DNA of 64,000 bases from Bacillota bacterium. Its GTDB lineage: Bacteria > Bacillota > Sulfobacillia > Sulfobacillales > Sulfobacillaceae. This document shows positions 45,623-63,993 of the stretch, piece after piece. The stretch is from assembly GCA_021799435.1 (NCBI GenBank), contig JAJZAN010000006.1:1-64000 (forward strand), given 5' to 3'. Positions within the stretch are counted from its first letter, which is position 1, and every line of letters begins with the position of its first letter. Both the position numbers and the translations under genes were made by a program. The notes under the pieces were generated by a model, which worked only from the letters and a program-made list of their open reading frames with translations, was not told the origin of the DNA and did not search any database.

Positions 45623-45638
45623 TGTGACCACGATCACA
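45623..45638 (-). promoter_or_regulatory. CRP/FNR-type box upstream of ferredoxin
   Basis: TGTGA-CCACGA-TCACA, a perfect 5-6-5 inverted repeat. It overlaps the DUF488 stop codon, so it probably serves the ferredoxin transcript. On the minus strand TACCAT (45600-45595) starts 30.5 bases from the centre, close to class II activator spacing. Confidence 0.7.
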
Positions 45639-46020
45639 CACCTAGTGCGCCTTCTTGGGCAGCCACATTCAGCAGGAACTCCCGCAGTACGGAGACATGA
45701 CTTAGATCCAGCTTCCGGCTGGCGGTGAGGAGCATGACAGGTTTCTCGCGCCAAAGCGCCAGCACATTCTCCACATCGGAATTGGGGAGCGAGGCGGTAA
45801 GTTCGGCAACGTAGCGCTCACGAAACTCCTCATAACGTGCCGGATCGTGTCCATACCACTGCCTCAGCGTTGTGCTGGGCGCCATCCCTTGAGCCCATAG
45901 ATCCCAGGGCGCCGACAGCTTAGACACTCCGCGAGGCCACAAGCGATCCACCAGCACCCGTGCCGCGTCAGGCGGGTCCGAAGGCGTGCTGATCCGCCCC
46001 GTCGTCAATGGCTTCACCAC
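45634..46020 (-). CDS. DUF488 (YeaO-like) protein
   Basis: A 128-residue protein with the DUF488 pattern RVLVDRLWPRGVSK near the N-terminus, WYGHDP in the middle and LLTASRKLD (the usual YSAKD/E-type segment) later. Function unknown. GTG start at 46020, two bases after the stop of the small upstream gene, so the two are co-transcribed. Confidence 0.88.
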   Translation of the reverse strand: MVKPLTTGRISTPSDPPDAARVLVDRLWPRGVSKLSAPWDLWAQGMAPSTTLRQWYGHDPARYEEFRERYVAELTASLPNSDVENVLALWREKPVMLLTASRKLDLSHVSVLREFLLNVAAQEGALGV

Positions 46021-46022
46021 GT

Positions 46023-46202
46023 CTAATCCTCCAGCGGTCCAAACTCAATTTCCAAAATCTCATCGACTGCGTGATTATCCGCCCATTCAATCACCAAGGT
46101 GCGCATGAGACACGCGGGATTTCTGATAACTTCGATCACCTCACCCATGCGCGGGTCACTTAGCCGTGGATCTCTCACCTGGTCGCCCACTTGGATGGAC
46201 AT
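46023..46202 (-). CDS. Small conserved-looking protein of unknown function
   Basis: A 59-residue acidic protein beginning MSIQVGDQVRDPRLSDPRMG, with a beta-rich pattern (EVIEVIRN, RTLVIEWADN, ILEIEFGPLED) like a small SH3-type or KOW-like barrel. I recognise no family. ATG 46202 has AAAGGAGG 6 bases upstream, good support for a real gene. First gene ahead of DUF488. Confidence 0.7.
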   Translation of the reverse strand: MSIQVGDQVRDPRLSDPRMGEVIEVIRNPACLMRTLVIEWADNHAVDEILEIEFGPLED

Positions 46203-46292
46203 GACCGGCCTCCTTTTCTCCGCAAACAACGATGCGCTGTGACTCCATCATACGCCAAATGCGCACACCGTTCGTACCTCCGGATCACCCGT

Positions 46293-48467
46293 CTAATCCT
46301 CGATAAAAGAATGGTCCGCAACCCGGGCCGCTGGTCGAGGCGTGGACGGCCAGAGTGCCCAATCCCCCAGGATTGTTGTAATGGCCGGGACTAAGAGCGA
46401 CCGCACCACAAAAGTGTCCAAGAGCACCCCAATGGCAGCCACTGACCCGAACTCCAGCAAAATTCGCAGAGGCAGTCCGGTTAGCACGGCGAACGTGCCG
46501 GCCAAAATTAACCCCGCCGCACTAATCACGGGACCAGAGGTCCGAATTCCCCAGCGAATGGCATCAGTCATGGGCGCCTCTCGCCGCCTTGACCAAATGG
46601 CTGACAACATAAAGATATTGTAGTCCTCACCGAGAGCCACCAAAAACACAAACGCGTACAGGGTCACGCCCCCCGCCCAGCCGGATATGCCGAGCACGTT
46701 GTGCAACAGAATCCAACCTGCCCCCAAGGCAGCGAAGAAGGAGAGAATGACCGTCAATATGAGGTAGACGGCTGCCACAATCGAGCGCAAGTACACCAGC
46801 AGCAGGACGAAGATTATGGCGAGCACCAACGGAATCACCCAATGCGTATCGTGCGCAATGGCAGCTCTGCTGTCGGCGTTTTGGGAGGTCTCCCCGCCCA
46901 GGTACACATGCGTTCCCGCTGGGAGGGCCTGCAACGCGGCATGCCGTATGCTTCCCAATTGCTGCATCGCGCTCTCCGAAAGGGGATTGCGGGAGATTTC
47001 AACTTGGTACACGGCCACCGAGCTGCCCTTCCAGTACCCGAATCGGGGAGACTGAACCGTGGTGACGCCGGGCGATCCTAACAGCGCCTTTTCAATAGTA
47101 TGGTGGGCGGCAGGTCCTTCCACCACCACCGCCACCGGACTTAACGCCCCAGGACCCTCTGCGCGCGAAAGGAGGCGGAATCCCTGTACCGACTGAGACG
47201 ACGCCGGAAGCTCCGACAAGAGATTATATGTCGTCCGTATGTGGCCTGCGTTGATAGCCAGCCCTCCCAGCAGGATCACGGCCCCGATAGCCACCGGCCA
47301 TGCCCGGCGCGTCACCAGAGCTGCCAACCAGGTGCGGCCCTTGGGGGCGGTCTTCCCAACCTTTGGCGTATACGGCCAGAAAGCCGGCCGTCCCAAGATA
47401 CTGAGGAGCGCCGGGACCAACGTCAACGAGGCCAGGGCGGTCATGCCGACGCCTACCGCGAAGGGGACGGCAAATCGATGGTCGGAGCCATAGACGGACA
47501 CCAGCAGTGTCAACAGCGCCGCCATCACCGTGCCGGCACTCATCGCCACGGCGCCTGATACGTCGCGATAAGCAGGACGCAGAGCTTGGATGGGATCTTG
47601 GTGACGCCATAGCTCGCGACGGTATCGCGACACGACAAATAGGGTATAATCCGTTCCCGCACCGAACATCAATACGGTCATGATGGATATAGTTTCAGCA
47701 TCCACCACAATCGCGTGGGCTCTGACCAGGGCTGATAAAATTCCCGACGTCACGGCGTAGCTCAATCCGACACTGAGCAAAGGAATCCACGGCAAGAGCG
47801 GGGAGCGGTAGATAAGCAGCAATAAGACCAATATGAGCACGGTCGTGCCGGCCAACAACGTCACGTCAGCGTTTTTGAAGAGGCCGGTGGTGTCTATTGC
47901 AATGCCCGTAGGGCCGGTCAGCCGGGCGGACAAGTGCCCCGACGCCGTGGATACACGCAGCAGATTTTGACCCGTGCTGACTTGCAGCGATCGGCCGGTA
48001 TCCCGTTTGATAGCGGACAGGATCCTGCTGTCTCCGGTTTGATGAAAGAGCAAAGGCACGACCAAGGTTGTTCCCGATCTCAGGGCCAAGCGGTGCAATT
48101 GGTTTGCTTGGACCCCAACGTATGGCACGGACCCCGTTTGATCGGGCAAGCGATGGCGGTCCAAGCGACTCAGGAATTGTGCAATGCCCGCGTAGTCTTT
48201 CGGCATCAATCCGCCCCTGCGGTAGAAGACCAGCAAGCCTGGACTGGCGTGCGTCCCGGGAAAGGCACCGTTTTCGATTTTACTCGCTTGGACAGAAGAA
48301 GCGGTCGTTGGCAAGTTAGCCGGGTTGGGCGATTCTACCTTAGAGATTGAGGGCAATACGGCGGTCATCACAATGGCGGCCACAACCCAGACAGCAACCG
48401 TCAGCCACCGGGCGCGCCGCCCCGTGAACCACGTTGAAACACGCTCCCATCCGCGAAATCTTCCCAT
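46293..48467 (-). CDS. MMPL-family RND transporter
   Basis: A 724-residue exporter with two repeats of six helices. The halves show the family motifs VDAETISIMTVLMFGAGTDYTLFVVSRYRREL and GEDYNIFMLSAIWSRRREAPMTDAI, including Asp residues in TM4-type helices for proton transport. MMPL proteins move lipids or drugs in actinobacteria and Firmicutes. ATG 48467 is 8 bases after TTGGAGG. Alone, with no adjacent regulator. Confidence 0.93.
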   Translation of the reverse strand: MGRFRGWERVSTWFTGRRARWLTVAVWVVAAIVMTAVLPSISKVESPNPANLPTTASSVQASKIENGAFPGTHASPGLLVFYRRGGLMPKDYAGIAQFLSRLDRHRLPDQTGSVPYVGVQANQLHRLALRSGTTLVVPLLFHQTGDSRILSAIKRDTGRSLQVSTGQNLLRVSTASGHLSARLTGPTGIAIDTTGLFKNADVTLLAGTTVLILVLLLLIYRSPLLPWIPLLSVGLSYAVTSGILSALVRAHAIVVDAETISIMTVLMFGAGTDYTLFVVSRYRRELWRHQDPIQALRPAYRDVSGAVAMSAGTVMAALLTLLVSVYGSDHRFAVPFAVGVGMTALASLTLVPALLSILGRPAFWPYTPKVGKTAPKGRTWLAALVTRRAWPVAIGAVILLGGLAINAGHIRTTYNLLSELPASSQSVQGFRLLSRAEGPGALSPVAVVVEGPAAHHTIEKALLGSPGVTTVQSPRFGYWKGSSVAVYQVEISRNPLSESAMQQLGSIRHAALQALPAGTHVYLGGETSQNADSRAAIAHDTHWVIPLVLAIIFVLLLVYLRSIVAAVYLILTVILSFFAALGAGWILLHNVLGISGWAGGVTLYAFVFLVALGEDYNIFMLSAIWSRRREAPMTDAIRWGIRTSGPVISAAGLILAGTFAVLTGLPLRILLEFGSVAAIGVLLDTFVVRSLLVPAITTILGDWALWPSTPRPAARVADHSFIED

Positions 48468-48581
48468 TTGTCGGTCCTCCAATATAATTAACTTCCCGGT
48501 ATAAATAAATACCCAAATGGGCGAATCGTGTCAATGGATTTTTTAAGTTCCTAGTCCGCGCCCCTCGTTGATTGTTAAAGA

Positions 48582-49745
48582 TTAGCTGCCGCTCCCGCTT
48601 CCAGTCGGGGTAGGAGAGCGTGAAGTGCTTCTTTGCGTGACCGACCCGGCCCCCGCTGGCTCCGTGATTGACGATGTCCCACGCTGCTTGGGCGCAGGTT
48701 GTTTCATGAAGAGCCGGCTTGCCGCCAGGATAAGCAACTCCATCCCCAAGTACAGGGGTACCACTGGATCAATCCAATGCAAAACGATTTGCGTCGCAGC
48801 ATGAGGCGAGGTGATGAGCAAGCTTCCCACCCACCACCATCCGGTCACGGGGATCGGGGTCCACCGGGCGGTACGGGGCCATCGATAACTTACCACCCAT
48901 TGGGTTAGCCGCAAGTGCACGATGAATCCCATCCCCATGCCAATGGTCCACGTCAGGATGACCATGATACCGATACGGGAGAGAAAGAATGTGCTATCCA
49001 AGGTGACGTGGTCCAAAACAAAGACCAACGGCCACCGCACTTGAATAAGAGCTTCAGGCCCCAGGGATCCCATGGCAACCACATACAGGAGTATGAAAAA
49101 CAGAATGGGAATCTCAATAGATACCAAGCGCCATGCCCAACTCGGGGGTTCGGCCGCAAACGAACTCGCCATGCGCAGGGTGACCCCAACCGACAGGCCG
49201 ATGAAGGCCTCCACACCCGCGGCCCGAATCACGGGGATGACCTGCACAACCTGATTAGGCTCTAATGGTCTCAGGTGGTGTACGGTCGTGAACGAGATGC
49301 CCAAGATAATCACAGCTCCCGCCGCTAAGATGGGTACCCACAAGGCAACGACCCGCCACGGAACATTGCCGCGGCGCATGGCGGCGGACGCGCTGGCAAC
49401 AAGAAGCGGAGTGGAGAGCACCCACCGCGGGGTTTCAAAATAATAGAAAGTCTGCAGCATACCGGAGAGTTCGGACACCATCACCGCATCGAGGATGACC
49501 ACGCCTAATACCCCCAAAATGTTGAGCCCGCGAAAAATCATCTGCCAGAGCGCAGGCTGGTTCTCTCGCGCGGGATTTAGCAAGGCCACCGCTATACCCC
49601 AGAGCCCCGTCAACATGAGAGTGATATCGGCGTTCTGACCTGCCGCCATAACAATGTGAAGCGGCCACACAAACAAGCCGTCCGTCACAATGCTCGCAAA
49701 CGCGATCCAGATAATGGCCATGGAATTTAGCGGGGTCTCTCTCAC
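48582..49745 (-). CDS. gerKB: Spore germination receptor permease subunit (GerAB/GerKB)
   Basis: A 387-residue APC-type membrane protein with about ten helices, ending in a Ser/Thr/Pro-rich soluble tail (residues about 350-387) that is unusual for the family. Germinant-binding B subunit of a Ger receptor in the spore inner membrane. Its sequence is diverged, so identity rests partly on gerKA and gerKC immediately upstream. GTG start at 49745 follows GGAGGGGG by 7 bases and overlaps the gerKC stop as GTGA. Confidence 0.85.
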   Translation of the reverse strand: MRETPLNSMAIIWIAFASIVTDGLFVWPLHIVMAAGQNADITLMLTGLWGIAVALLNPARENQPALWQMIFRGLNILGVLGVVILDAVMVSELSGMLQTFYYFETPRWVLSTPLLVASASAAMRRGNVPWRVVALWVPILAAGAVIILGISFTTVHHLRPLEPNQVVQVIPVIRAAGVEAFIGLSVGVTLRMASSFAAEPPSWAWRLVSIEIPILFFILLYVVAMGSLGPEALIQVRWPLVFVLDHVTLDSTFFLSRIGIMVILTWTIGMGMGFIVHLRLTQWVVSYRWPRTARWTPIPVTGWWWVGSLLITSPHAATQIVLHWIDPVVPLYLGMELLILAASRLFMKQPAPKQRGTSSITEPAGAGSVTQRSTSRSPTPTGSGSGS

Positions 49746-50839
49746 CGAAGCACCCCCTCCTCCCGCAACGTAAACCGCACTTGGGTTTCCAGTGTCCACC
49801 CTGACCAGTTGGCCACATTGTCATCAATGTTTGCATCCGACCAATGGCCCAACCGGTGAAAGCCCATCGGGTCCGTATGCGTCACGACAGCCTCATGCCA
49901 AGCCGCCACCACCTTCTGCTGAATGAGGTCAGCCGTTCTCTTCTCCACCTGCCGGTCCATGGCGATGCTGTCTCCCTGTCCCATCATCCCTCCTACCACC
50001 ACGCCGGAACAGCGCAGGTGCAATTGCACCGTCACCCCGTTTGGGGTCTGTACCACCCGGGTCTGGGCATGCCCGCGAATCAACCCGACGGAGTCGGGTT
50101 GATTGCCGACCATCACCGTCTCCGTTGTTCGCTGGACCCGCCCTACCGCATACGCCCACCCATCCGTCTCCGTGGTGCTCCAGAGTAAGATGCCGTGAGG
50201 GCTTAGGACCGCCAACTGGTGGAGAGCCACTTGCTGCCCGGTGGGATGTACCTCCATCACAGCCGGCGAGATGCCAGGAGTGGCCATTTCCGCCCAAATC
50301 CGCCAACCGCGGCCTGGCCAAAGCACGGGTTGTATGCGGCTGTTGAGGGCGCGGTAGAGCGCCACATCGGGCACCACCTCGCTGGGCGGGGTAATCTCCA
50401 GCGCCTTCCGAGCATCGGGCGATGTCAGAACCCAGAAGGTCATGACAAATCGTCCTGAATCGGCCGTCTCTTGGAGGGTCGATGTCCAGACCTTCAGAGG
50501 AAGGCGTGATGACATGCACAAAATGCGAATCTGCCCTAAGTATAGGGCTCGGCTTTGGCGCCGCTGCACCGAATCAATTGCCTTTGTCAGGGTCGGCGCC
50601 TGCACGGAAATTGAATAAAACTGTTCGCTGGGCGGTATTGTCGCAATACTGGAGGCGGTAACAGTCACATTGGGAAAGAGAAAGGTGAAGTCATATTGAT
50701 CCGGTTCCCGAGTTGGGTCGACCGAAATGCCAGCCACGGGAGCACGAAATTCCACCGGATGCTGATCCCAACACCCGGTCAAACTCGTCCCGAGCAGGAG
50801 CGTTGCCAGGGTTCCCCGAACCCATCGCCAGGCCCGCAT
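49742..50839 (-). CDS. gerKC: Spore germination lipoprotein (GerAC/GerKC)
   Basis: A 365-residue lipoprotein with signal peptide and lipobox LTGC, lipidated at Cys23, followed by WD as in Ger(x)C proteins. The mature body carries family features such as VEFRAPVAGISVD and SRALYLGQIRILCMSS. C subunit of the receptor, on the outer face of the spore inner membrane. It begins directly after the gerKA stop (TAG-ATG). Confidence 0.92.
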   Translation of the reverse strand: MRAWRWVRGTLATLLLGTSLTGCWDQHPVEFRAPVAGISVDPTREPDQYDFTFLFPNVTVTASSIATIPPSEQFYSISVQAPTLTKAIDSVQRRQSRALYLGQIRILCMSSRLPLKVWTSTLQETADSGRFVMTFWVLTSPDARKALEITPPSEVVPDVALYRALNSRIQPVLWPGRGWRIWAEMATPGISPAVMEVHPTGQQVALHQLAVLSPHGILLWSTTETDGWAYAVGRVQRTTETVMVGNQPDSVGLIRGHAQTRVVQTPNGVTVQLHLRCSGVVVGGMMGQGDSIAMDRQVEKRTADLIQQKVVAAWHEAVVTHTDPMGFHRLGHWSDANIDDNVANWSGWTLETQVRFTLREEGVLR

Positions 50840-52348
50840 CTATGATTGGTCCATCCAACGCAGATCTTGGGTCCGCGATTCCGTGAGGCGGCGCCGCAAG
50901 TATGCCCAGGGCGTGCGCCACAAAAAGTTAGCCCAATCCTTGGGGCGCCACGGACTGAAGGGTGCAAAATACGGTGTGCCGAATGAGCTCAGGCTCACCA
51001 GTTCGATAGACAGCCATAGCGCGGACAGCAGCATGCCATAAATGCCGAGGACGAAAGCGCTCAGGAGCATGACCCAGTTAAGCATTCTCCAGCTGGCGAT
51101 CAACTCATAGGCAGGGCCGCTGAACAAGCTTAAGGCCGTCATGGTCATCACCACAATGATTTGCGCACTGACGAAACCGGCCTTAACCACGGAGGTTCCC
51201 ACCACAATGGCGCCCACGGTGCCGATGGTGGAGGCCAAGACGGTGGGCAGCCTCAGCGCCGCTTCGCGCAGAATCTCGACGACGAGGATCATTACCAACA
51301 CCTCGACAAAAGGCGTAAACGGAAGTCCGGTGTGACTTCCGGCGACAATATCCAATAGCGAGGGCGAGATGAGATCCGGGTTGACCTCAGTCAGGGCGAT
51401 ATAGAGTCCAGGTAGGAAAATGCCAAACCCCCAAGCCACCAATCGAATAATGCGGACGAAAGATGCATCGTACCAAGGAGTCGAATAATCTGCGGAGGTG
51501 CGGTAAAAATCTGCTATGGTGGCGGGCACGGTGATGGCGAACGGGTCCCCTGCCACCAATATGGCAACCTTGCCGCTCTGCAGTTGCAGGGCGGCCAAAT
51601 CCACCCGCTCCGTGTACCGCACGGTGGGCATAAAAGTCCAGTTATGGTCGCGAATGAGGCTGCCGATTCGGGTTGCATTAGTGGGCGTGTCGATTTTAAT
51701 GGCGTTCAGCCTCTCTCTCACGGTATTCAACACCGTCGGTGACGCCAGACCATCGACATAGACCATGTAGCAAGCTGTCGGCATACGTTCACCAATGGTG
51801 ATTTGCTCTGCAGCTAGTTGCGGCGTCGGCAGACGCTGCCGCAATTGAGCCAACTGGACGGTAAGTGTCTCCACGAACGCTTCCTGCGGGCCGCGGATAG
51901 CCAGCTCCGTTTGAGGAATATCCACCGCGCGATGAGGCGGTTTCTTGAGATCCACCAGCACCACACCCGGGGTGCCGGACTCTGCGACCACCACCTCGCC
52001 GGTGAGATAACCTTGGAGCAGATCCTCCCAGCGTTGGGCCTGACGGGAAGCGACACCGCTGCCGCTCAGAACGCTGGGGAGTTGCCCGGTCGTAAGAACC
52101 GTAGTCAAGCGTTCTGTGTCGACCATGCCGTCCAAATAGATCACAAGGCACGGCCCCTGAGAACCTGGTGTCTCCTGGACGACCAGATCGGGGGCTCGCT
52201 TCTGCATTTCGGCCATGAGCCTTTTTATGATCGCCACATCGCCGCGGTCCAGTGCTGCTTGTCCGACAAGTTCTTGGACCGTGGGAATCCAGTGGCTTAA
52301 AACGTCCAGCAGATGGTCTGCCTGTTGAGCCCACAGCGACGCTCGCAT
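50840..52348 (-). CDS. gerKA: Spore germination receptor subunit A (GerKA)
   Basis: A 502-residue GerA-family protein. The soluble N-terminal half contains GRDHNWTFMPTVRYTERVD-type strands and LVAGDPFAITVP, and the membrane half has GLYIALTEVNPDLI, PFTPFVEVLVMILVVEILREA and RLP, all typical. First gene of the ger operon. An AGGCAGGG site precedes ATG 52348. Expression in the forespore would need sigma-G; no confident sigma-G promoter was seen. Confidence 0.94.
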   Translation of the reverse strand: MRASLWAQQADHLLDVLSHWIPTVQELVGQAALDRGDVAIIKRLMAEMQKRAPDLVVQETPGSQGPCLVIYLDGMVDTERLTTVLTTGQLPSVLSGSGVASRQAQRWEDLLQGYLTGEVVVAESGTPGVVLVDLKKPPHRAVDIPQTELAIRGPQEAFVETLTVQLAQLRQRLPTPQLAAEQITIGERMPTACYMVYVDGLASPTVLNTVRERLNAIKIDTPTNATRIGSLIRDHNWTFMPTVRYTERVDLAALQLQSGKVAILVAGDPFAITVPATIADFYRTSADYSTPWYDASFVRIIRLVAWGFGIFLPGLYIALTEVNPDLISPSLLDIVAGSHTGLPFTPFVEVLVMILVVEILREAALRLPTVLASTIGTVGAIVVGTSVVKAGFVSAQIIVVMTMTALSLFSGPAYELIASWRMLNWVMLLSAFVLGIYGMLLSALWLSIELVSLSSFGTPYFAPFSPWRPKDWANFLWRTPWAYLRRRLTESRTQDLRWMDQS

Positions 52349-52918
52349 CGAAAACCCTGCCTTTCATGTCACTAATGGGTAGAGTTTCCGCGATCCATCC
52401 AACTTATCCCATGCGCAGTGCTGCCGCGATAGGGCCAAACGGTTACCTGCGTTTGAAATGGGTGTTGCGAAGAGGTCGCTCCCAGCCTGGAACCGCAGTC
52501 TTCCCAGCCAAACTCTTGGCGGGTCCATGGCTCGCGTTATTTTTGACGGTGGAGTCGTACTGTAATGGACTGTTTATTACTTCGCACATGGCTGCCATCG
52601 TTGGAGGACTCATTTTGAAACCAAGTTCATTACGCGAGCGAAGGCCGGCAATAATACCACCGCGGAGCACCGCCGGATTCAGGTCAGTCCCCCCTCCGCC
52701 GCTAACGCTCCCTAAGAGCGAGGGGTCACTCGTCTGAACTGGGGGATCCGGCTGCTAAACTAGCCATGGACGCTGCCTACGCGGTGGCGCATGCGCGGCC
52801 TGTATAAATGCATCGTGCGGACGCTCTCGGCCATCGTCATGGCGTTTGGTCTTTATATGGGCATGACAATATTGTAGGCATTCAGCGCGCAGCGCCGGGT
52901 GCGATCGCTTCCGAGATC
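52349..52918. other. Intergenic region between ger operon and lipA
   Basis: About 570 bases with no supported gene. It contains the promoter of the ger operon, a small CGCTC/GAGCG hairpin near 52707-52721 and, at 52791-52877, a 28-codon frame ending in a hydrophobic helix but without a ribosome site. lipA ends at 52919 on the minus strand. Confidence 0.5.
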
Positions 52919-53812
52919 TCAGGATTTAACCGCAGCCGTCGCCTGCCGCGCCTGACGAGCCGCATGATATGAGGTCCGCACCAAGGGACCGGACTCCACG
53001 TGGAGAAATCCCCGCTTCATCCCTTCTTCCTGCAAAGCGGCAAATTCATTTGGAGTGTAGAAGCGTACCATCTCCATCTGCTTGTGCGTAGGACGCAAGT
53101 ATTGGCCAATGGTGACGATGTCCACGCCCACACCCCGCAAGTCATCCAGTGTCTCTAAAATCTCGTCCCAGTGCTCCCCTACCCCGAGCATCATGCTTGA
53201 CTTGGTGCGCTGGCCGGGATTCATAATCTTGGCGTTGCGCAACACCTCCAAAGAGCGGTCATATGTAGCCCGGGAGCGCACCTTTGGCGTCATTCGGCGC
53301 ACCGTTTCTATGTTGTGATCGAGCAGCTCCGGCTTCTTATCCACCACAAGTTGCAAGGCAATTTCATCGCCTGCGAAGTCCGGGATTAACAGCTCCACCT
53401 GACATCCGGGGGCTTCGCGGCGAATGGCCAAAACCGTCGCCCCAAAAATTGACGCCCCGCCATCGGGAAGATCGTCGCGGTCCACGCTGGTAATCACAGC
53501 ATGATCCAACTGCATGTCCCGTACAGCGTCCGCCACCCGGTCCGGTTCCTCCCAATCCACGCGGCCTCCCGGGCGCCCGCTCTTAACGGCGCAAAACCGA
53601 CAATTCCGGGTGCAGGTGTCGCCCAATATCATAAACGTGGCCGTTTTATCCTTGTCCCAACACTCAAAGATGTTGGGACAATGCGCTTCCTCGCAGACGG
53701 TATGAAGCGTTTTGCCCCGCATGATTCCCTTCAGCCTCTGATAATTTGGGCCCGGAGTCGCTTTTATCGTGAGCCACGGCGGCTTTTCACCAACGATACC
53801 CATTCTCGTCAT
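52919..53812 (-). CDS. lipA: Lipoyl synthase
   Basis: A 297-residue radical-SAM enzyme that inserts two sulfurs into protein-bound octanoate. The auxiliary cluster motif CEEAHCPNIFEC, the radical-SAM motif CTRNCRFC and the C-terminal RTSYHA serine are present, covering all known cluster ligands. ATG 53812 follows AAAGGAGTGGC; a 16-codon longer frame is less likely. No lipB or lipM gene is adjacent. Confidence 0.96.
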   Translation of the reverse strand: MTRMGIVGEKPPWLTIKATPGPNYQRLKGIMRGKTLHTVCEEAHCPNIFECWDKDKTATFMILGDTCTRNCRFCAVKSGRPGGRVDWEEPDRVADAVRDMQLDHAVITSVDRDDLPDGGASIFGATVLAIRREAPGCQVELLIPDFAGDEIALQLVVDKKPELLDHNIETVRRMTPKVRSRATYDRSLEVLRNAKIMNPGQRTKSSMMLGVGEHWDEILETLDDLRGVGVDIVTIGQYLRPTHKQMEMVRFYTPNEFAALQEEGMKRGFLHVESGPLVRTSYHAARQARQATAAVKS

Positions 53813-53946
53813 GCCACTCCTTTCGGGTTTCTCAAACAGTCGGCGCCGCCCTCCTGGCATGGAGGCCTCAAGCGCTCATCACACTCTGTGCCAAAGGCCG
53901 CTCAGGCCGGGCTTCGTTCCACCCACAAGGACCTCGCCAGCGCCTC

Positions 53947-54147
53947 CTAGGCCGAGTTCCTCTCACCCCCGCTCAACACCCATGCGGCGTATAGGCGCCC
54001 CGCCTCTTCAGCGTGTTCGGCGCAATAGTAGTAGTCCGTATTCGGCAGGTAGTGGGTCGCTGGCCGGTCACAAAAACAAGCGGGAACTCCCATTTCATTC
54101 GTCGATGCATCACCTAGTGGCTTAAGAACCGGCAACTCTGGTGCCAT
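53947..54147 (-). CDS. Small Cys/His-rich protein, probable metal binder
   Basis: A 66-residue protein with CFCDRPATHYLPNTDYYYCAEHAEEAG: three cysteines and several histidines in a zinc-finger-like layout (CxC...CxxH). I recognise no named family. ATG 54147 follows AAAGG by 11 bases. A CRP/FNR box at 54365-54380 with a matching -10 (54338-54343) points toward this gene, leaving a leader of about 180 bases. Confidence 0.6.
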   Translation of the reverse strand: MAPELPVLKPLGDASTNEMGVPACFCDRPATHYLPNTDYYYCAEHAEEAGRLYAAWVLSGGERNSA

Positions 54148-54337
54148 CCTGCACACATCCTTTCCCGTGTATGTTTTAACGTCCTAAGCAGGAATCAACG
54201 CCCTTGGGGCGCGCTCGAAACCGTCTCTGTTTCCACTTCAAGACGGCTCTGGCACGGCACTTTTCGACGCTGGCATTCTTGCGGTCGGGCGCAGGCAAAC
54301 CCAAAACCTTCGACGTGCCGGATAGGACATTTCCTGA

Positions 54338-54380
54338 AACATATGTCATCACGGGAAAGCAATGCGTGACAAAAATCACG
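54338..54380 (-). promoter_or_regulatory. CRP/FNR-type box with -10, directed toward the small Cys/His gene
   Basis: Box CGTGA-CAAAAA-TCACG at 54365-54380. On the minus strand TATGTT (54343-54338) begins 29.5 bases from the box centre, the same spacing as at the DUF2249 promoters. The predicted start is near 54331. The + strand shows no matching -10. Confidence 0.6.
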
Positions 54381-54512
54381 AATCCGGCAAAAAGCGACCT
54401 TGGGAAGCGATAAGCGTGCCGCCGCATGGAACCTACATCTGGTTCGGCGACGGACCTGGCGACTCTCGCGGAGCTGGGACGCCATCAAGCCATAATTTCC
54501 TTAAATAGCCAC

Positions 54513-54554
54513 CGTGACTTGGATCACGACGCGATGATTCTGGGATGCTATGCT
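54513..54554 (+). promoter_or_regulatory. CRP/FNR-type class II promoter of the first DUF2249 gene
   Basis: Box CGTGA-CTTGGA-TCACG (54513-54528) and -10 TATGCT (54549-54554), 28.5 bases from centre to -10. This puts the box centre near -41, the classic class II activator position, with no separate -35 needed. Confidence 0.75.
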
Positions 54555-54584
54555 CGAAGTCGCACATAGGAGGAGGAAGAATCC

Positions 54585-54854
54585 ATGGACTATCCATCAG
54601 CGATGACACTTAACGCCTGGACCTTACCGTCCAACATCCGGCATGACGTCATATTTCGCGTGCTGGATGCACTACCGCCCTATCAGGCCGTCACACTCAT
54701 CAACGATCATGACCCTAAGCCTTTGTTCTATCAATTGGACGCCGAGCAACCCGGGGTATTTGCACGAGAAACGGTGAACCCCCCACGCCCCGACTTTTTC
54801 GCCGTGCTAATCACACGCCGGCCCAAGGCGGGCGAAATCACCCTACTCTCATAG
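54585..54854 (+). CDS. DUF2249-domain protein (first copy)
   Basis: An 89-residue protein. The core LINDHDPKPLFYQLDAEQPGVF is the DUF2249 signature. These proteins occur in nitrogen-oxide and anaerobic respiration clusters and may bind metal or haem partners; the function is not known. It has GGAGGAGG before ATG 54585, a CRP/FNR class II promoter, and a paralogue at 58813-59046. A decayed ABC exporter begins 22 bases downstream. Confidence 0.88.
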   Translation: MDYPSAMTLNAWTLPSNIRHDVIFRVLDALPPYQAVTLINDHDPKPLFYQLDAEQPGVFARETVNPPRPDFFAVLITRRPKAGEITLLS

Positions 54855-54875
54855 GCGCGCGGAAGAAGAACTTTC

Positions 54876-55805
54876 ATGACGGATTGAGTGTTTCAGGGGC
54901 TGTCCAAGCAATTTGGCTCGGTATGGGCCAACCGCGATATCTCCCTCCCGGTGAAGCCGGGCACCATCGTCGGTTTGCTGGGCCCCAATGGGGCTGGGAA
55001 AACCACGTTGCTGAGGCTGCTGGTGGGGCTCAGTCGCCCCACCTCTGGACACATTGTGATTGGCGGACGAACTGTGGTGCCCGGGAAGTCATGGGTAAAG
55101 GAAACCATCGCTTATCTTCCCCAGCATCCATTGCCCTTGGGCGATTTAACGGTGGAAGAGGCCATCCGTTCAAGCGCCCTCTTGCGCGGACAAAGCCGCG
55201 ATGAGGCGAATCGTAATACCGAACAACTGCTGGAGTCCTTCGATTTACAGCCCCTGCGCCACCGTCAGGTGGCCGGATTGTCAGGAGGCGAACACCGTCT
55301 CGTAGGTATTGCGGGCGTGGGGGTCGCCCCCACGCCCATTTTGGTCTTGGATGAACCGACCAATGAGTTGGGTCCCCTTATGCGGCGCTGCGTCTAGGAT
55401 TTTATTGAGGGGCCGCGGAATCCCGACCGCGTTGTCCCTATTGGTCTCTCACAATGTCTTGGAAGCGGAGCGAGTCTTGGATCGGGTTCTCGTCATGACC
55501 CACGGACAGATTCGCCACGATGGCCATCCCCGGGCACTGTGCGAAGAAGCCGGCGACTTTTTGACGGTGTCCGTCACGGCGACACACGACGTGACCATGC
55601 TGGCTGACGATGTGAGCGGCGTCAGCGACCGCGTCCACTCCCATCCCCCACATTGGAATTTACCGCACCCCGACCGGCTGCTTTGTCTCTTTTGGCTCGC
55701 TGGTTGACTGAACCAGGCCTCATTAGCAGCGTTTCTGTCAATGAGCCGAGCTTGGAAGATGCTTATCTGGCCCTGCGGTACAACAGCGAGGAGAATCCCT
55801 CATGA
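54876..55805 (+). pseudogene. ABC transporter ATP-binding protein, inactivated
   Basis: The remains of a roughly 300-residue ATPase: Walker A GPNGAGKTT, signature LSGGE, Walker B LVLDEPTNE, then LLVSHNVLEAERVLDRV and the C-terminal NEPSLEDAYLAL. It is broken by a TGA at codon 4 (54885-54887), a TAG in the VWDFI position (55396-55398 region), a frameshift near 55430 and another before 55690. The ATGA junction to the permease is still visible. The number and variety of lesions argue against sequencing error. It belongs with the permease and, by position, the DUF2249 gene. Confidence 0.85.
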
Positions 55806-56587
55806 ATGCCATACGACGCGCCTCAGTCGGGACCATGTTTCACGTCCTGCTGCATATGCAATTTGCCCGCCTGCGGCGCAGTTGGCGCCCCTATATTGTG
55901 TTCAGCGTCGTGATGCCTGCCGGGATTGTGTTGCTCCTGCACATCACCAGTCTGGAGCGGAACGCCTCAACATTATTTCCGGGGCCGTGCTGTTATCGGA
56001 GTCTATCGCCACCATTGTCATGCTGTCGCAATACGTGGCCTGGCTCAAAGTCAGCCGCGCGTTGGATCACTATCGCGTTCTCCCCATCTCGTTAGCACTG
56101 CTCATGATTGCGCTGACCACGGTCTATGGGCTCTTTGCCTGGCCGGGAATCTTCCTAATCGCCGCAGAAGGATTTTGGCTCGACCATTTGTCGCTGCACT
56201 TTTCTCTCATGCTTATCCCGCTGTTGCTGTTTACCAGTGTCGCCATGGGATCCCTCGGCAGTCTCATCGGCCTCATGGCCCCCGACGAGGGTCTGGCGGG
56301 ACTGTTTGGCAACCTTGTCATGATGGGGGTCCTGTTCCTGGGGATGGTGCCCGTCGATTCCGTGGGACAATGGTCGTTGGCGTTTTGGATTCTTCCCTCG
56401 ACGGGACCCTTGGATTCTCAAAGGGATTATGTTTCACGGGCCTTTTAACACATGGCCCCATTGGTTGGGACTCGCTCTGTACGCAGCCGTCGCCATGACG
56501 TTGAGCGCAGACGTGATCAAAAAGCCCCAACAGACGGCTACGGGCCCAACCCCTCGTAGGCAACGGGCCCGCCAGCAACGATTTTAG
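55802..56587 (+). pseudogene. ABC-2 type membrane permease, inactivated
   Basis: Partner of the broken ATPase. Three frames together give one protein with about six helices: MNAIRRASVGTMF to LLLHITSLERNA in the first frame, then IISGAVLLSESIATIVML to FWILPS in the second (shift near 55970), then KGIMFHGPFNTWPHWLGLALY to the stop at 56587 in a third (shift near 56410). It overlaps the NIPSNAP gene end. Not functional as it stands. Confidence 0.82.
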
Positions 56588-56883
56588 ACTCGGTAGTAGA
56601 CGCTGGTCGTGAACGAATCGGCGGTAAATGCTTGCCGAGCTTCGTCAGACATGCGCTGATAGGCGGGATCCCTTCGGATGGCCGCGGCCAATGTCTCTAA
56701 TTGGGCTAAACTGTCAAAGTCCATAACCGCTTGAAATGTACCCGGTGCTCCAAACGCCTGATAGTACACCTCCAGGGTCTTTTGGTGGTTACTCTGAAAG
56801 TACTCTTTCATTTGCCGGAAGAGCCCCATCGCTTTATCGCCTTCGCCGGGGTTGGTTCGAAATTCGACCACATAACGGGTCAT
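56584..56883 (-). CDS. NIPSNAP-like dimeric alpha-beta barrel protein
   Basis: A 99-residue protein in the dimeric ferredoxin-like fold group: VVEFRTNPGEGDKAMGLF, LEVYYQAFGAPGTFQAVMDFDSLAQLETLAAAIRRDPAY. Pattern and size fit the NIPSNAP/EthD-like families, which include small stress and degradation proteins. AGGAGAGGAG precedes ATG 56883. Divergent from the AhpD-like gene, sharing 150 bases of promoter region. Confidence 0.75.
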   Translation of the reverse strand: MTRYVVEFRTNPGEGDKAMGLFRQMKEYFQSNHQKTLEVYYQAFGAPGTFQAVMDFDSLAQLETLAAAIRRDPAYQRMSDEARQAFTADSFTTSVYYRV

Positions 56884-56969
56884 GCTCTCGTCTCCTCTCC
56901 TATCTCATCCTAGTTCCTAATTTTAGCAAAATACCCATCATGCACCAAGCGGGACGAATTACTGGCGGC

Positions 56970-57011
56970 CGTGACACACATCACGCCATTTCCTGCCAGA
57001 TGTGGCATGCT
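56970..57011 (+). promoter_or_regulatory. CRP/FNR-type class II promoter of the AhpD-like gene
   Basis: Box CGTGA-CACACA-TCACG (56970-56985) with -10 CATGCT (57006-57011), 28.5 bases from centre to -10. Same geometry as upstream of the first DUF2249 gene. Confidence 0.75.
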
Positions 57012-57034
57012 GTTGAGCGGGAGGAGATGCTTGG

Positions 57035-57514
57035 ATGACTGACAACGTTGACGAATCTATGCGGTTAGATTGGAGCACCGTGTTGCCCGAAGCGCGCGAC
57101 GCCATGGTTCAACTGGAGTCGGTGGCCCACCATGCCGGGCTCCCGCGAGAATTACTTGAGCTAGTCAAAATCCGCGTTTCCCAGGTCAACGGCTGCGCCT
57201 ACTGTCTAGACATGCACACCAAGGAGGCGCGCAATCTGGGTGAGCGGGAACAACGCATTTATGCGCTCCCAGCTTGGCGCGAGACCCCGTTTTACACCCC
57301 GCGAGAGCGAGCCGCCCTTGAATGGGCAGAAGCGGTGACCAAGGTATCCGACGGGGTCCCCGATGCTCTCGTTAAGGCGCTTGAAGAACAATTCAGCGCC
57401 CGGGAAATTGCGGGATTGACGGCTGCCGTCATCGCTATTAATTCCTGGAATCGCTGGGCTATAAGCCTCAAGGCTGAGCAGCCCGGAGCCTATCGCCCAG
57501 ATTTGGCGCGATAA
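57035..57514 (+). CDS. Carboxymuconolactone decarboxylase (AhpD-like) family protein
   Basis: A 159-residue all-helical protein. The redox motif NGCAYCLDMHTKEA (CxxC-x3-H) is the AhpD-type peroxidase centre, followed by ARNLGE and a helix with AALEWAEAVT. Probably removes peroxides with thiol cofactors. GGGAGGAG lies 8 bases before ATG 57035. Preceded by a CRP/FNR class II promoter and followed by a strong terminator: a single-gene unit. Confidence 0.9.
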   Translation: MTDNVDESMRLDWSTVLPEARDAMVQLESVAHHAGLPRELLELVKIRVSQVNGCAYCLDMHTKEARNLGEREQRIYALPAWRETPFYTPRERAALEWAEAVTKVSDGVPDALVKALEEQFSAREIAGLTAAVIAINSWNRWAISLKAEQPGAYRPDLAR

Positions 57515-57550
57515 ACGAGAGGGGCGGTACTCAGACCGCCCCTCTCGTTT
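57513..57550. terminator. Terminator of the AhpD-like gene
   Basis: A perfect 16-bp stem, AAACGAGAGGGGCGGT (57513-57528) with ACCGCCCCTCTCGTTT (57535-57550), six-base loop. The stem begins inside the stop codon. Confidence 0.9.
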
Positions 57551-57643
57551 ATTCAACGGGATGCAAAGAAGGGGCCCAGAGCCGTGCACCCCCATCTTCC
57601 ATCGACCGTTATTGTCGCACCACGCCAACACCATAACAGTGGC

Positions 57644-58515
57644 TTAACCAAAACGGATTGTCCAAGTTCTGGATTTTGACCCTCTGCCCCTGTGGGCGTC
57701 GATGAAGGCTTGCCGCAGTCCCTGTCGACGATCGGCACCGATATAGATGCCAACGTGCGATGCGCCAGAAGCATAGGTCAGAAAGAAGACCCAGTCGCCC
57801 GGCGCCAGTCGGGACCGGGGTACATGGCGGACGGCACGATATAGCTCCCAAGTTGTGCGGCCAATGTGAATGCCGTTTTCGGCCCGCATGCATTGGACCA
57901 GACACGAGCAGTCGAATCCGTGCGGACTCTCTCCTCCCCACACATAGGGCACGCCGCGATAGCGCAGGACCGTTGCAATCACTCGGTGACTCAACCGCCA
58001 GGCCGTGTGGGCCCATCGGGGGGATGCTGCACGGATCGTGATGAAGCTCCCCGCCCGCAATTGGTCAGGATGGCCCAAGTGATTGAGTGCGGCTAATTTT
58101 GGCCAAGTAGTGTGAAAGCGGCGGGCGATGGAGACCAGCGTGTCGCCCCGCTTCACGCGGTATCGCAAGGAGATGATGTGCTTCGTGCGATGGGAGGGTA
58201 CGAGTAGAATAATCTGCCCGGCGCTCGGCTGGTGCAAGTGATTAATCCGCGCCAACGTGACCCAACTGACATGAAAGCGCCCAGCAATCCCCGACAGCGT
58301 ATCGCCCGGCTTGACGCGATACGTGCGGGGCGGAGCCGCTTCGAACGCGGGTGAAGCAAACGACGCCGTGCCACGTTCGCGGGCCGCACGCAGGGGGGTT
58401 CGGTTCGCGGACCTACCACGCCATTACTGCGGAAATAATGGGCACTTTGAAACGATTCACCAACGTGCATTCCCCCGTACATACTTAACACCACGGTACT
58501 GGGAGTCGCCAGCAT
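57644..58515 (-). pseudogene. LysM-LysM-NlpC/P60 cell-wall hydrolase with a frameshift in its N-terminal part
   Basis: Two LysM domains (YRVKPGDTLSGIAGRF and YRVKRGDTLVSIARRF) precede an NlpC/P60 domain with the catalytic Cys in GFDCSC (usually FDCSG), His in SHVGIYIG and a late FIDAHRG. The domain frame is open back to about 58420 but has no normal start there. The frame with a start (ATG 58515, after AAGG) joins it if one base is lost or gained in a run of six C/G at 58393-58398. So the gene is disrupted, phase-variable or misassembled. An alternative start at TTG 58255 would lose the first LysM domain. Confidence 0.65.
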
Positions 58516-58760
58516 TGTACAAGCCTTGTCATGCCATGGTCAATCCTGGCCCCTGGCAGGTAGTCAGCAACTCCATCGGTCAACTTCCGCCAGAAGTGTC
58601 GCGATTACGGCCAATAACGGGGAGCGTGGATTTTGACTTTATACGTGAATTTGTTGTCCTAACACGATCGTCCGTTAAATTTCTACCAAAATCGCCCACG
58701 TGGTCGAATCTTCCAATCAGCGAATTGCGACACGGCCGTCTTCGTGCCGGGGATTTCCGC
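58516..58760. other. Intergenic region between LysM-NlpC/P60 gene and DUF2249 copy 2
   Basis: About 245 bases with no gene recognised. It should contain the promoter for the minus-strand cell-wall hydrolase. Two + strand frames here lack ribosome sites and run across the neighbouring terminator, so they were set aside. Confidence 0.5.
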
Positions 58761-58761
58761 G

Positions 58762-58794
58762 AAAAACAAAACGGGGCGGGTTAAGTGCCGCCCC
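58762..58794 (-). terminator. Terminator of the second DUF2249 gene
   Basis: On the minus strand GGGGCGG (58794-58788) pairs with CCGCCCC (58779-58773), followed by a T-rich tail (GTTTTGTTTTT). It starts 19 bases after the stop at 58813. Confidence 0.85.
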
Positions 58795-58812
58795 AGAACC
58801 TTTTTATACGGC

Positions 58813-59046
58813 TCAATTCCGCGTCAACAAAATTGCAAAACGCGCAGGACCCGATTCTTGGTACTCCACCGAAAACACGCCCGGCTGCTCTGCCTCCAAC
58901 TGGTACAGAAGCGGCTTCGGATCATGGTCGTTGATGAGTAGCGCCGAGAAGCCCTGGGGAACCGCATCAAACGTCGCTAAGATCGTCTGATGCTTAACCG
59001 GCGGCGGCAACAGCGGTGCGTTAATGATAATAACTGGATCAGCCAT
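58813..59046 (-). CDS. DUF2249-domain protein (second copy)
   Basis: A 77-residue paralogue of the gene at 54585-54854: LLINDHDPKPLLYQLEAEQPGVFSVEYQESGPARFAILLTR repeats the same core, with a different N-terminus (PVIIINAPLLPPPVKHQTIL). ATG 59046 lies 10 bases after GGAGGT. It has its own CRP/FNR promoter and terminator, so it is a single-gene unit although 99 bases behind the mevalonate operon. Confidence 0.88.
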   Translation of the reverse strand: MADPVIIINAPLLPPPVKHQTILATFDAVPQGFSALLINDHDPKPLLYQLEAEQPGVFSVEYQESGPARFAILLTRN

Positions 59047-59088
59047 GTGAAACGGTACCTCCCAGTTGCGAAGTGTGTATCCATCCAA

Positions 59089-59131
59089 AGCATACGGCCC
59101 ACGCACAAGAGGCACGGTGACCAGGATCACA
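59089..59131 (-). promoter_or_regulatory. CRP/FNR-type class II promoter of the second DUF2249 gene
   Basis: Minus-strand box TGTGA-TCCTGG-TCACC (59131-59116), one mismatch between half-sites, and -10 TATGCT (59094-59089), 29.5 bases from centre to -10. It sits between the mvaK2 stop and the DUF2249 gene. Confidence 0.72.
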
Positions 59132-59145
59132 CCAACGGGGACAAT

Positions 59146-60243
59146 TTATGCAAAATCGTCCGTGTCGGACAGCACCACCCCCACGGTATCGAGATTCAAC
59201 GGAAGCACTTCAATGCCTCGCCGATTCCACGTCTGGCCCAGCCGGGAGTGCTGCGATCCGGGCATCCACGCTACGATAATGTCGCCACCCCCAGCACCGG
59301 ACGACTTGCCGGCCCCTCCCCACTCTTCTGCCATGTCTAAGGCACTCGTCATCATGGGCGTTTCGATGTCGAGTTGGGCTCGGTTGCTAAATTCCGCGAG
59401 GGCCTGTCGGTTTTTCCTCACCGCCGCAATGAGTTGTGGCCCATCATCGGTTTGCAGTGCTTGGACAAAAGCGCCGACGGCCGCATCGCTTTGGATGAGG
59501 AAACGATTAAAGACATCGGGATGCCGTGCCCGGAACTGGGCTGCACGGTCCAATAAGGCGGGCGTCGAGGCGGCACGACCGGTCCAGCCAACCAGCCATG
59601 GTGGAGCCCGCCGCGCATCGAGAGTCTGGACTCCGAGACCTGGCCAAGGACGGGTAATCAGCTCCACCAGCGAATGACTCGAACCAGCCTGGTTCATCCA
59701 TTCAGGGTCGACGCGCTGGTAATACATAAGGCCGCCGAAAACACTGGCCGCTACGTCCGCCAAGGATCCGCGCGGCTGCGTGGAAAAATGAGCCAAGGAA
59801 GCCAACTTGAAAATCTCCTGCGGGCGCGGGGACCTTGGCAGGGCCCATTTGAGGATCGCCGCAACCATGGCGGCTGTCACTGCGGCGCTGGATCCCAGCC
59901 CATACTTCTCTCCTGATGGTGCGCGAAGTTCACTCGTTGTGGCCAATCGAAAGGGCCATGGAACGCAGTGCAGTTCCCGAAAATAGCGATCCAAGAGAGA
60001 TAGCACCCGAGACGCCAGCTTGAGATCTGGTTCCTGAGTCAACCGATCCACGAGCCGCCCCCACCCGTCGGCGGCAACGCTTGGCGTATTCCCAAACGAT
60101 GCGGAAAAGGTTTTCCCGCTGGTGACCCGGCAGTACAAATAGCGGTCGACCGCTGCCACAAGCCCGGGATGTCCCGGTTCCGTCACAGCATATTCGCCCA
60201 TCAGCATCAGCTTACCGGGGGCACGGGCTGCAACGCGCATCAT
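59146..60243 (-). CDS. mvaK2: Phosphomevalonate kinase
   Basis: A 365-residue GHMP kinase. APGKLMLMGEYAVTEPGHPGLVAAVD is the GHMP N-terminal motif with the phosphomevalonate kinase E-Y-A-V, EKYGLGSSAAVTAA the ATP-binding glycine-rich loop, and GAGGGD in the C-terminal motif. Converts mevalonate-5-phosphate to the diphosphate. It starts inside the mvaD stop (ATGATG). Last gene of the mevalonate operon in this window. Confidence 0.92.
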   Translation of the reverse strand: MMRVAARAPGKLMLMGEYAVTEPGHPGLVAAVDRYLYCRVTSGKTFSASFGNTPSVAADGWGRLVDRLTQEPDLKLASRVLSLLDRYFRELHCVPWPFRLATTSELRAPSGEKYGLGSSAAVTAAMVAAILKWALPRSPRPQEIFKLASLAHFSTQPRGSLADVAASVFGGLMYYQRVDPEWMNQAGSSHSLVELITRPWPGLGVQTLDARRAPPWLVGWTGRAASTPALLDRAAQFRARHPDVFNRFLIQSDAAVGAFVQALQTDDGPQLIAAVRKNRQALAEFSNRAQLDIETPMMTSALDMAEEWGGAGKSSGAGGGDIIVAWMPGSQHSRLGQTWNRRGIEVLPLNLDTVGVVLSDTDDFA

Positions 60244-61229
60244 ATCGAGGATACCGCCTCCACGCCGGGGCCGGGCCGTGTGATGACGACCCCGGTCACG
60301 CCGGGTATACGGGACAGCAGGTCGGCAACGATCCCAGCCTGATGGTGTTCCACCAAAACGACGGGATGAGGTCCGGCATCAATCGTGACGTAGACCTCGA
60401 ACCCTTCCTCTCGCAGTTCTTGAACGCGGCGAATCACGGAGACCGTGGCGCCTGTCCAATACAGCAATGGGGGGACTGCGGCAAGACCCGTGGCATGCAT
60501 CTTTAAGGCATTGGATTCAGCGGCTAATCCGAGCTGAGACAAGTTCTTTTCGTGAATAGCATCCCGAACCCGGGTCAAATCCTCGTTTATGCTGGCAAGC
60601 CACCCCGGATATAAGGGCGAGGTCCGAACCACCCGTTGCATGCCATCTCGACTGGACACGGCCTTGGGTCCTGACTCCACCCGAACCACCACAAAAGCCA
60701 ACAACGGCCAACTGTCCATAGTCCTCAGCGGAACCGCGTAAGAGTCTTGGCCGTCATCCCGGTTCCCTCTCAGCCACTCGACGAATCCGCCATGAATGGA
60801 CCGGCTCGCGGAACCAGACCCGAGACGGGCAAGCCGCGACAGCTCCGGGAGAGACCAAGGAAGCCGCAGAGTGAGTGCAAATGCCTTCGTTAACGCCGCG
60901 AACGCCGCCGACGAGGACGCCAATCCCGCAGCTATCGGCATGTTGGCCGTCGTACGCGCTGTGACTCCCCCCGAAACTCCCGCGCAGGCCCTGAGTCGGC
61001 TGAAAAAGTCTGAGGCACGCTGCGTTTCTTGCGATGACGCCGGAACCCCGTTCACGAATAGACAGTCATCCTGCTGAAGAGGTTCCACAACCACAGAAGC
61101 GGTGACTGAATAGTGGTCCAGGGTGACGGAAATGCTCCCGTTCATGGGAAGGTTAAGGTACGGGTCGCGCTTCCCCCAGTATTTCACCAGCGCAATGTTG
61201 ATGTGGGCCCGGGCGATCCCTTCTTCCAT
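60240..61229 (-). CDS. mvaD: Diphosphomevalonate decarboxylase
   Basis: A 329-residue GHMP protein with ALVKYWGKRD near the N-terminus, MPIAAGLASSSAAFAALTKA and GSGSASRSIHGGFVEW, the signature of mevalonate diphosphate decarboxylases, including the catalytic-lysine region and substrate-binding Arg. It yields isopentenyl diphosphate. ATG 61229 follows GAAGGGG; a longer frame to 61292 overlaps the kinase upstream. Confidence 0.95.
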   Translation of the reverse strand: MEEGIARAHINIALVKYWGKRDPYLNLPMNGSISVTLDHYSVTASVVVEPLQQDDCLFVNGVPASSQETQRASDFFSRLRACAGVSGGVTARTTANMPIAAGLASSSAAFAALTKAFALTLRLPWSLPELSRLARLGSGSASRSIHGGFVEWLRGNRDDGQDSYAVPLRTMDSWPLLAFVVVRVESGPKAVSSRDGMQRVVRTSPLYPGWLASINEDLTRVRDAIHEKNLSQLGLAAESNALKMHATGLAAVPPLLYWTGATVSVIRRVQELREEGFEVYVTIDAGPHPVVLVEHHQAGIVADLLSRIPGVTGVVITRPGPGVEAVSSI

Positions 61230-61242
61230 TCCACTCACCCCT

Positions 61243-63392: not shown

Positions 63393-63423
63393 CAAACATC
63401 CTCCTCAACATGGCTGTTCGGCC

Positions 63424-63993
63424 TCAGGCGTGAAAGACCCGAGCACTTCGCACGTATTCGATTTCAGCCTGTCCATTGCGGGCGTTGGCCACCCGTGCCA
63501 GCACAAACAGCAAATCTGACAAGCGGTTGAGATACACAATGGTTGTGGGATGAATGGCTTCCATGCGCTGCAAGTGCACCACATCTCGCTCGGCGCGGCG
63601 GACGGCCGTGCACGCCCAATGCAACAGCGCTGCTGCCGGCGTGCCTCCACGCAAAATAAACCGCTCTAATGGGGGGCATTGCTTTTGCACGTCATCGATG
63701 TAGTGCTCAAGACGCTCCACATCCTGAGGGGTGGTCCGATACGGATGTTGGTCATCATCTACACGCGCCAAGTCGGCTCCGACATCCCACAGCGTTTGCT
63801 GAACAGACATGAGAATCGTCTGCATGTCCTGAAGCCTCTCATCAGACCCCAGAAAACTCAGTACACCCCCAATGACAGCTCCCGCCTCATCCACCGCGCC
63901 GTACGCCTGGATGCGGGCATCGTCTTTAAAGCGTCGGACGCTGCCAATTACCTGTGTCTTTCCTAAATCGCCCCTGCGTGTGTATATTGGCAT
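63424..63993 (-). CDS. Cob(I)alamin adenosyltransferase, PduO type
   Basis: A 189-residue trimeric ATP:cob(I)alamin adenosyltransferase. N-terminal YTRRGDLGKTQVIG corresponds to the ATP-binding YTRTGDxGTT loop, slightly altered; FILRGGTPAAALLHWACTAVRRAERDVV and YLNRLSDLLFVLAR carry the conserved Arg and Asn-Arg-Leu-Ser-Asp motif. Makes adenosylcobalamin. It lies 31 bases ahead of mvaA on the same strand and may head the same transcript. Its own upstream region is outside the window. Confidence 0.93.
   Translation of the reverse strand: MPIYTRRGDLGKTQVIGSVRRFKDDARIQAYGAVDEAGAVIGGVLSFLGSDERLQDMQTILMSVQQTLWDVGADLARVDDDQHPYRTTPQDVERLEHYIDDVQKQCPPLERFILRGGTPAAALLHWACTAVRRAERDVVHLQRMEAIHPTTIVYLNRLSDLLFVLARVANARNGQAEIEYVRSARVFHA

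Follow-up and report, generated by a model that had tools for sequence, protein, structure and literature searches.

The window analysed here, the first 64,000 bases of contig C63 (71,900 bases), belongs to a metagenome-assembled genome (MAG) of Sulfobacillus, a genus of acid-loving, biomining bacteria, or of a very close relative; the assembly comprises 3.97 Mb in 228 contigs and is 90% complete. Five inverted repeats lie in this window before genes for a ferredoxin, a small Cys/His protein, two DUF2249 proteins and an AhpD-like putative thiol peroxidase (Table 1). A reading made earlier from the letters of the window (termed hereafter the sequence-only reading) had described them as the boxes of a local CRP/FNR-type regulon, each followed by a -10 hexamer. 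The observation of the five boxes is confirmed: four are exact matches to YGTGA-N6-TCACR and one carries a GGTGA variant, and the hexamers stand where they had been placed, TATGCT-like at 28.5 or 29.5 bases from the box centre for four boxes and TACCAT at 30.5 for the ferredoxin. The ferredoxin box overlaps the stop codon of a DUF488 gene. The open reading frame (ORF) listed as 58813-59130 for the second DUF2249 protein begins within its box, and its start is more likely at 59046.

Table 1. Boxes, their predicted promoters and the genes that they precede. Positions are C63 coordinates unless another contig is named, and those above 64000 lie past the window end; -10 distances are counted in bases from the box centre. 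G-codes (G001, G002, G003, G005, G006, G008, G009, G024, G026) are genomes of relatives. aa, amino acids.
Feature	Position	Strand	-10 hexamer, distance	Target or remark	Box kept in
Box TGTGACCACGATCACA (TGTGATCGTGGTCACA on - strand)	45623-45638	-	TACCAT 45600-45595 (-), 30.5	upstream of ferredoxin	
FdxA-like 4Fe-4S ferredoxin, 92 aa	45259-45537	-			
Box CGTGACAAAAATCACG (CGTGATTTTTGTCACG on - strand)	54365-54380	-	TATGTT 54343-54338 (-), 29.5		
Small Cys/His ORF, 69 aa	53947-54156	-		216 bases from centre of box 54365	
Box CGTGACTTGGATCACG	54513-54528	+	TATGCT 54549-54554 (+), 28.5	DUF2249 (54585)	G005, G009
DUF2249 protein, 89 aa	54585-54854	+		Pfam E 7e-15	
Box CGTGACACACATCACG	56970-56985	+	CATGCT 57006-57011 (+), 28.5	AhpD-like (57035)	G003, G006, G001
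AhpD-core carboxymuconolactone decarboxylase family protein, putative thiol peroxidase	57035-57514	+			
Box GGTGACCAGGATCACA (TGTGATCCTGGTCACC on - strand)	59116-59131	-	TATGCT 59094-59089 (-), 29.5	DUF2249 (58813)	G002, G006, G005, G009; box also in G003
DUF2249 protein, 77 aa from ATG 59046	58813-59046	-			
Mevalonate operon: PduO, HMG-CoA reductase, mevalonate kinase, diphosphomevalonate decarboxylase, phosphomevalonate kinase	59146-63993	-			
Sixth box TGTGACTTTTGTCACC	64054, 54 bases beyond window end		AATGAT, 28.5	precedes mevalonate operon	G000, G006, G001, G009
Box	64231			peroxiredoxin	
Box target	65077			Rieske ferredoxin-NuoF-DUF2249 run	
Box target	70478			cupin-ferredoxin-NnrS-like	
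Box target	C73 1965			hemerythrin-like-narGHJI	
Box target	C73 13005			HdrD-like (Fe-S oxidoreductase)	
Box target	C73 13088			SufB	
Box target	C73 16369			SufT-Mrp	
Box target	C13 19600			DUF2249x2 and two NnrS-like proteins	
Box target	C13 22790			hyp112-DUF2249-CRP	
Box target	C13 24193			Tpx-MarR-OsmC	
CRP/FNR gene, 218 aa	C13:23520-24176			PF00027 E 1.6e-14, PF13545 1.2e-16, PF00325 1.8e-7	

The null model consisted of 300 shuffles of the window that preserved dinucleotides; in these, the core box GTGAY-N4-RTCAC appeared 0.21 times on average (maximum 3) compared to five times in the window itself. The combined pattern, in which the core is followed by [CT]AT[AG]NT at 28.5 or 29.5 bases from its centre, was found four times compared to a mean of 0.003 (maximum 1). 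When one mismatch was permitted, the box alone occurred 11 times against 6.3, an unimpressive excess, and the case thus depends on the exact core and the spacing. This mild enrichment would fit chance palindromes or sites of an unrelated factor, an explanation rendered barely conceivable by the exact core, its clustering, and the conservation of both spacing and boxes across genera reported below.

Genome scans were run with fixed IUPAC patterns, using the reversed pattern as a control, and revealed a clustered regulon about four times the size of that in the window. Exact cores numbered 40 genome-wide and 12 in the control; 18 of the 40 fall on contigs C63 (10), C13 (4) and C73 (4), which represent 114 kb of 3,970 kb (2.9%; binomial p ~1e-17). 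The pattern combining box and -10 gave 10 matches, every one of them on C63 or C13, whereas the control gave none. All three contigs probably form part of one island, because the ends of C63 (71790-71900) and C73 have about 100 bases in common around one box before they diverge, and because the gene sets of C13, C63 and C73 occur on common contigs in relatives (G005:C89, G003:C46, G006:C354). The redox, nitrosative or oxygen cue of the sequence-only reading is sharpened by these genes: since the box is shared by genes for nitrate reductase, NnrS-like, DUF2249, hemerythrin and Fe-S assembly proteins and, in relatives, for a NirK-like protein, the target list, which also includes peroxidases, would point to nitrosative stress and the respiration of nitrate, the signal itself being something that we infer. 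The NirK-like gene, under the curated cut-off, carries a box with TATACT at the proper distance in G005 and G001, and a box is found in the nar promoter of G026 and in that of the ferredoxin preceding nar in G008, with TATGCT or TATACT at 29.5. The NnrS label is weak: one protein matches PF05940 with E 8e-4, under the cut-off, and the others were named from similarity in length and context.

The sequence-only reading had further proposed a class II activator geometry. This class is defined by a box centre about 29.5 bases from the -10, at -41.5 from the transcription start. The class II distance to the -10 of E. coli CRP is also about 29.5. For the count we used core boxes located at most 130 bases from a predicted gene start in the genome studied and in eight relatives, with the window's own five removed; an initial strict -10 pattern recovered only 32 of 64 sites and was replaced by a weighted score. 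A -10-like hexamer was present at 28.5 or 29.5 in 46 of 60 promoters, compared to 2.1 (maximum 8) with shuffled downstream sequence, a figure that exaggerates the number of independent events because orthologous promoters are mutually dependent, and at any other offset in at most 7 of 60. As the spacing was recovered on sites that had not prompted the idea, class II geometry belongs to the whole set of predicted promoters. One box (C13:18303-18316), before ctaB (putative protoheme IX farnesyltransferase), shows no -10 at class II distance and was excluded as a target.

The five sites of the window are not equally conserved. Those before the two DUF2249 genes and the AhpD-like gene are kept with correct spacing in two to five relatives. 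Box 54365 shows good spacing, but the Cys/His ORF assigned to it is an unconserved orphan. The ferredoxin box is the weakest of the five: its spacing is off, and it is absent upstream of the nearest orthologue (88% identical, in G002), where a -10-like sequence is retained. A paralogous ferredoxin is encoded at C63 69766, in the operon behind the conserved cupin box. Downstream of the DUF2249 gene at 54585, ABC transporter ATPase and permease frames (window 54888-56448) appear fragmented when compared to G005.

No CRP/FNR gene lies within the window, as the sequence-only reading had noted, and the HTH_Crp_2 and Crp profile models detect a single full CRP/FNR ORF across the assembly, on contig C13; a second CRP-like match, on C12, turned out on reading its sequence to be an ArsR-type protein. 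The C13 protein combines the N-terminal cNMP-binding-type (cyclic nucleotide) barrel and C-terminal HTH_Crp domain of the superfamily, is 91% identical to its Sulfobacillus harzensis orthologue, and is encoded by the last gene of the operon hyp112-DUF2249-crp, in front of which a box is found. Its recognition helix, HRETVSR, aligns with RETVGR of CRP and fits GTGA, the sequence carrying the Arg180, Glu181 and Arg185 of CRP-type specificity; R180 and E181 correlate with G3 and A6 of the box according to Rodionov and colleagues (PMC1274295). An AlphaFold model of the protein (12 sequences) was too poor to be used (pLDDT, the per-residue confidence score, 56).

These features raise the question of whether the regulator could be a true FNR, an oxygen sensor dimerising on a 4Fe-4S cluster, as targets such as narGHJI and ferredoxins and the class II geometry resemble FNR regulons. 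However, the conserved cysteines expected for such a cluster are missing: the C13 protein contains none, most orthologues likewise lack them, and the few found among 39 orthologue sequences (some being the same gene retrieved twice) occupy positions unshared by the family. Direct cysteine ligation is already contradicted, and we regard this identity as hardly credible. Alternatively, the regulator could be a cyclic AMP (cAMP) receptor protein, in which case the cluster would be a regulon of carbon or global control that incidentally includes respiration genes. In favour of this, the core of the box is identical to TGTGA-N6-TCACA, the consensus of E. coli CRP, the RETV-R helix is common to CRP, and C13 carries a glycerol operon a few kb upstream. 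A cAMP receptor is nonetheless very unlikely, since the cAMP pocket is unconserved, the Glu72 position being Ile or Met and that of Arg82 not being conserved in the family motif GIAGLWD..GYPASAR, and since the targets are respiration, NO (nitric oxide) and Fe-S genes with no sugar genes among them. TTGLW, GIAGLWD..GYPASARAL..PT..GW and His111 are nearly invariant in the family; we take the TTGLW and GIAGLWD motifs together with His111 to mark a different ligand site, in which the invariant histidine would be at most a lead toward heme or NO sensing.

In relatives, too, boxes occur near the regulator gene. Around 28 orthologous crp loci, including other families of the order, 25 cores were counted for 0.3 expected. 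No CRP orthologue was found in five genomes of the family, four of which are also devoid of narG and show 0, 1, 0 and 0 matches to the pattern combining box and -10. The association between CRP presence and box counts in the family reaches p 0.008, which is only moderate because G024 is exceptional and because targets are lost along with the regulator.

Several observations weigh against assigning all boxes to this single regulator. G024, 93% complete, has six matches to the combined pattern and yet no CRP was found in it. As the MAG studied is only 90% complete, an additional CRP/FNR gene could be absent from the assembly. The studied genome's own nar promoter displays a weak -10 only, CACCAT at 29.5, and a second factor may well be needed there because of this weakness. 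Gene calls came from a home-made ORF scorer, and some relatives are themselves MAGs and possibly mixtures. G003 contains both a CRP fragment in the conserved island (C46 1696-1827) and a more distant full copy (C47 44408-45028), a sign either of a mixed MAG or of replacement.

With these reservations, we estimate at roughly 85% the probability that the boxes serve as operators for a single activator of the CRP/FNR family, which controls an autoregulated class II nitrate, nitrosative or low-oxygen regulon. The sequence-only reading had interpreted the boxes as a clustered regulon of CRP/FNR type with class II geometry, and in this respect it is strongly supported, because promoters that it had not seen fit the spacing, other genera conserve the boxes and the linked regulator has a matching helix. 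A common operator at a fixed distance, its conservation, the linkage of the regulator, the autoregulatory box, the match of helix and operator and the lack of cysteine can all be read in the DNA. From these we infer that a dimer would bind CGTGAY-N4-RTCACG, some 41.5 bases before the start, and recruit RNA polymerase by class II activation. The activator, encoded in the same neighbourhood as its targets, would turn on its own operon hyp112-DUF2249-crp together with narGHJI, three NnrS-like membrane proteins, DUF2249 proteins, hemerythrins, the SufB/SufT/Mrp Fe-S assembly proteins and an HdrD-like oxidoreductase; the programme would also comprise the Rieske/NuoF module, ferredoxin, Tpx, OsmC, the AhpD-like protein, peroxiredoxin and the mevalonate operon. 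The most likely signal is NO or some other consequence of nitrate respiration; alternatively, the switch may be driven by concentration as for DnrT of Thermus. This last possibility, a sub-case of the single-activator regulon in which the activator is independent of any signal and sensing is left to a partner, for instance hyp112 or the DUF2249 protein co-transcribed with crp, finds a precedent in the cysteine-free, oxygen-insensitive DnrT, which activates the nar operon as well as its own (PMC5748679), and in the DUF2249 protein DrpA, proposed as a nitrate sensor (PMC6282519; PMC11218638), and would agree with the position of crp at the end of its boxed operon. The near-invariance of the pocket motif and of His111 suggests on the contrary a bound ligand, and we hold concentration-driven control to be a serious though minority possibility.

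The sixth box, before a complete mevalonate operon in which PduO is a cobalamin adenosyltransferase, was unexpected since IspG of the methylerythritol phosphate (MEP) pathway is also encoded in the genome. We hypothesise that an Fe-S-free isoprenoid route on stand-by would suit NO conditions. It is possible, albeit rather doubtful, that the cysteine-free regulator senses NO or a product of nitrate respiration in a new ligand pocket and also switches on the mevalonate pathway, backing the Fe-S-dependent MEP pathway (IspG and IspH), which would be vulnerable to NO. The peroxiredoxin-like gene behind box 64231 (C63:64300-64940) carries in four genomes (including G003, G006 and G001) a TGA in place of the peroxidatic cysteine codon (ADFTPV*TSEF). 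Behind it comes a stem-loop, TCGCCTTGGCAAGGCGA, that is clearest in G003, G006 and G001, and the gene product is a candidate selenoprotein; the gene has a later frame break in the present assembly. A comparison of Sulfobacillus genomes reported narGHJI in only one analysed genome and is silent on its control (PMC4378227). For anaerobic and nitrosative life in the genus, the present analysis proposes a concrete regulon with one candidate activator. It would bring several DUF2249 proteins whose function is unknown under control of the nitrate type, as is the case in Thermus and haloarchaea, and it raises the idea of a redox regulator that replaces an isoprenoid pathway dependent on Fe-S by one free of it.

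Fnr of the Firmicute Bacillus subtilis uses TGTGA-N6-TCACA-like boxes at -41.5 before narGHJI and narK and binds an Fe-S cluster via cysteines; box kind and position are thus the same, whereas the present CRP has no cysteine. An orthologue of this Fnr (Crp2) has been treated as having CRP-like sites (PMC1274295). E. coli CRP shares the core box, its spacing and the RETV-R helix, but is only 24% identical and its cAMP residues are unconserved here. HcpR of Desulfovibrio resembles the present CRP in R180, in its box wTGTGAnnnnnnTCACAw and in targets including ferredoxin and hemerythrin-like genes (PMC1274295), a comparison limited to the box and the R180 rule; no hcp was seen on the contig stretches read. 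In Haloferax mediterranei, denitrification clusters are marked by DUF2249 genes and a repeated promoter motif (PMC11218638). The literature searched contained no description of such a regulator in Sulfobacillus.

The functionally closest analogue is the nitrate element of Thermus thermophilus, which matches the arrangement predicted here: a cysteine-free, autoregulated CRP-like activator stands beside nar, accompanied by ferredoxin, DUF2249 proteins and a dedicated NADH-dehydrogenase-like module. Its activator DnrT is CRP-like, lacks the cysteine motif, adjoins nar and is autoregulated and oxygen-insensitive (PMC5748679), and its DrpA and DrpB (PMC6282519) are called DUF2249 proteins in PMC11218638. 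The present regulator is nevertheless not DnrT, because identity (28-31%) and helix (PEAVSR in DnrT, RETVSR here) differ. DnrT is moreover paired with the GAF protein DnrS, of which the hyp112-DUF2249-crp operon has no counterpart, and its site overlaps a CTTGACC-type palindrome whereas the present boxes are of the GTGA type; a Thermus plasmid copy displays the nitrate-element layout with a GAF protein. The best reading of these sequences is a regulator that is neither FNR nor cAMP-CRP, though working like Bacillus Fnr and Thermus DnrT. We conclude that this kind of system is already known and that the version predicted in this Sulfobacillus is, by the literature searched, new.

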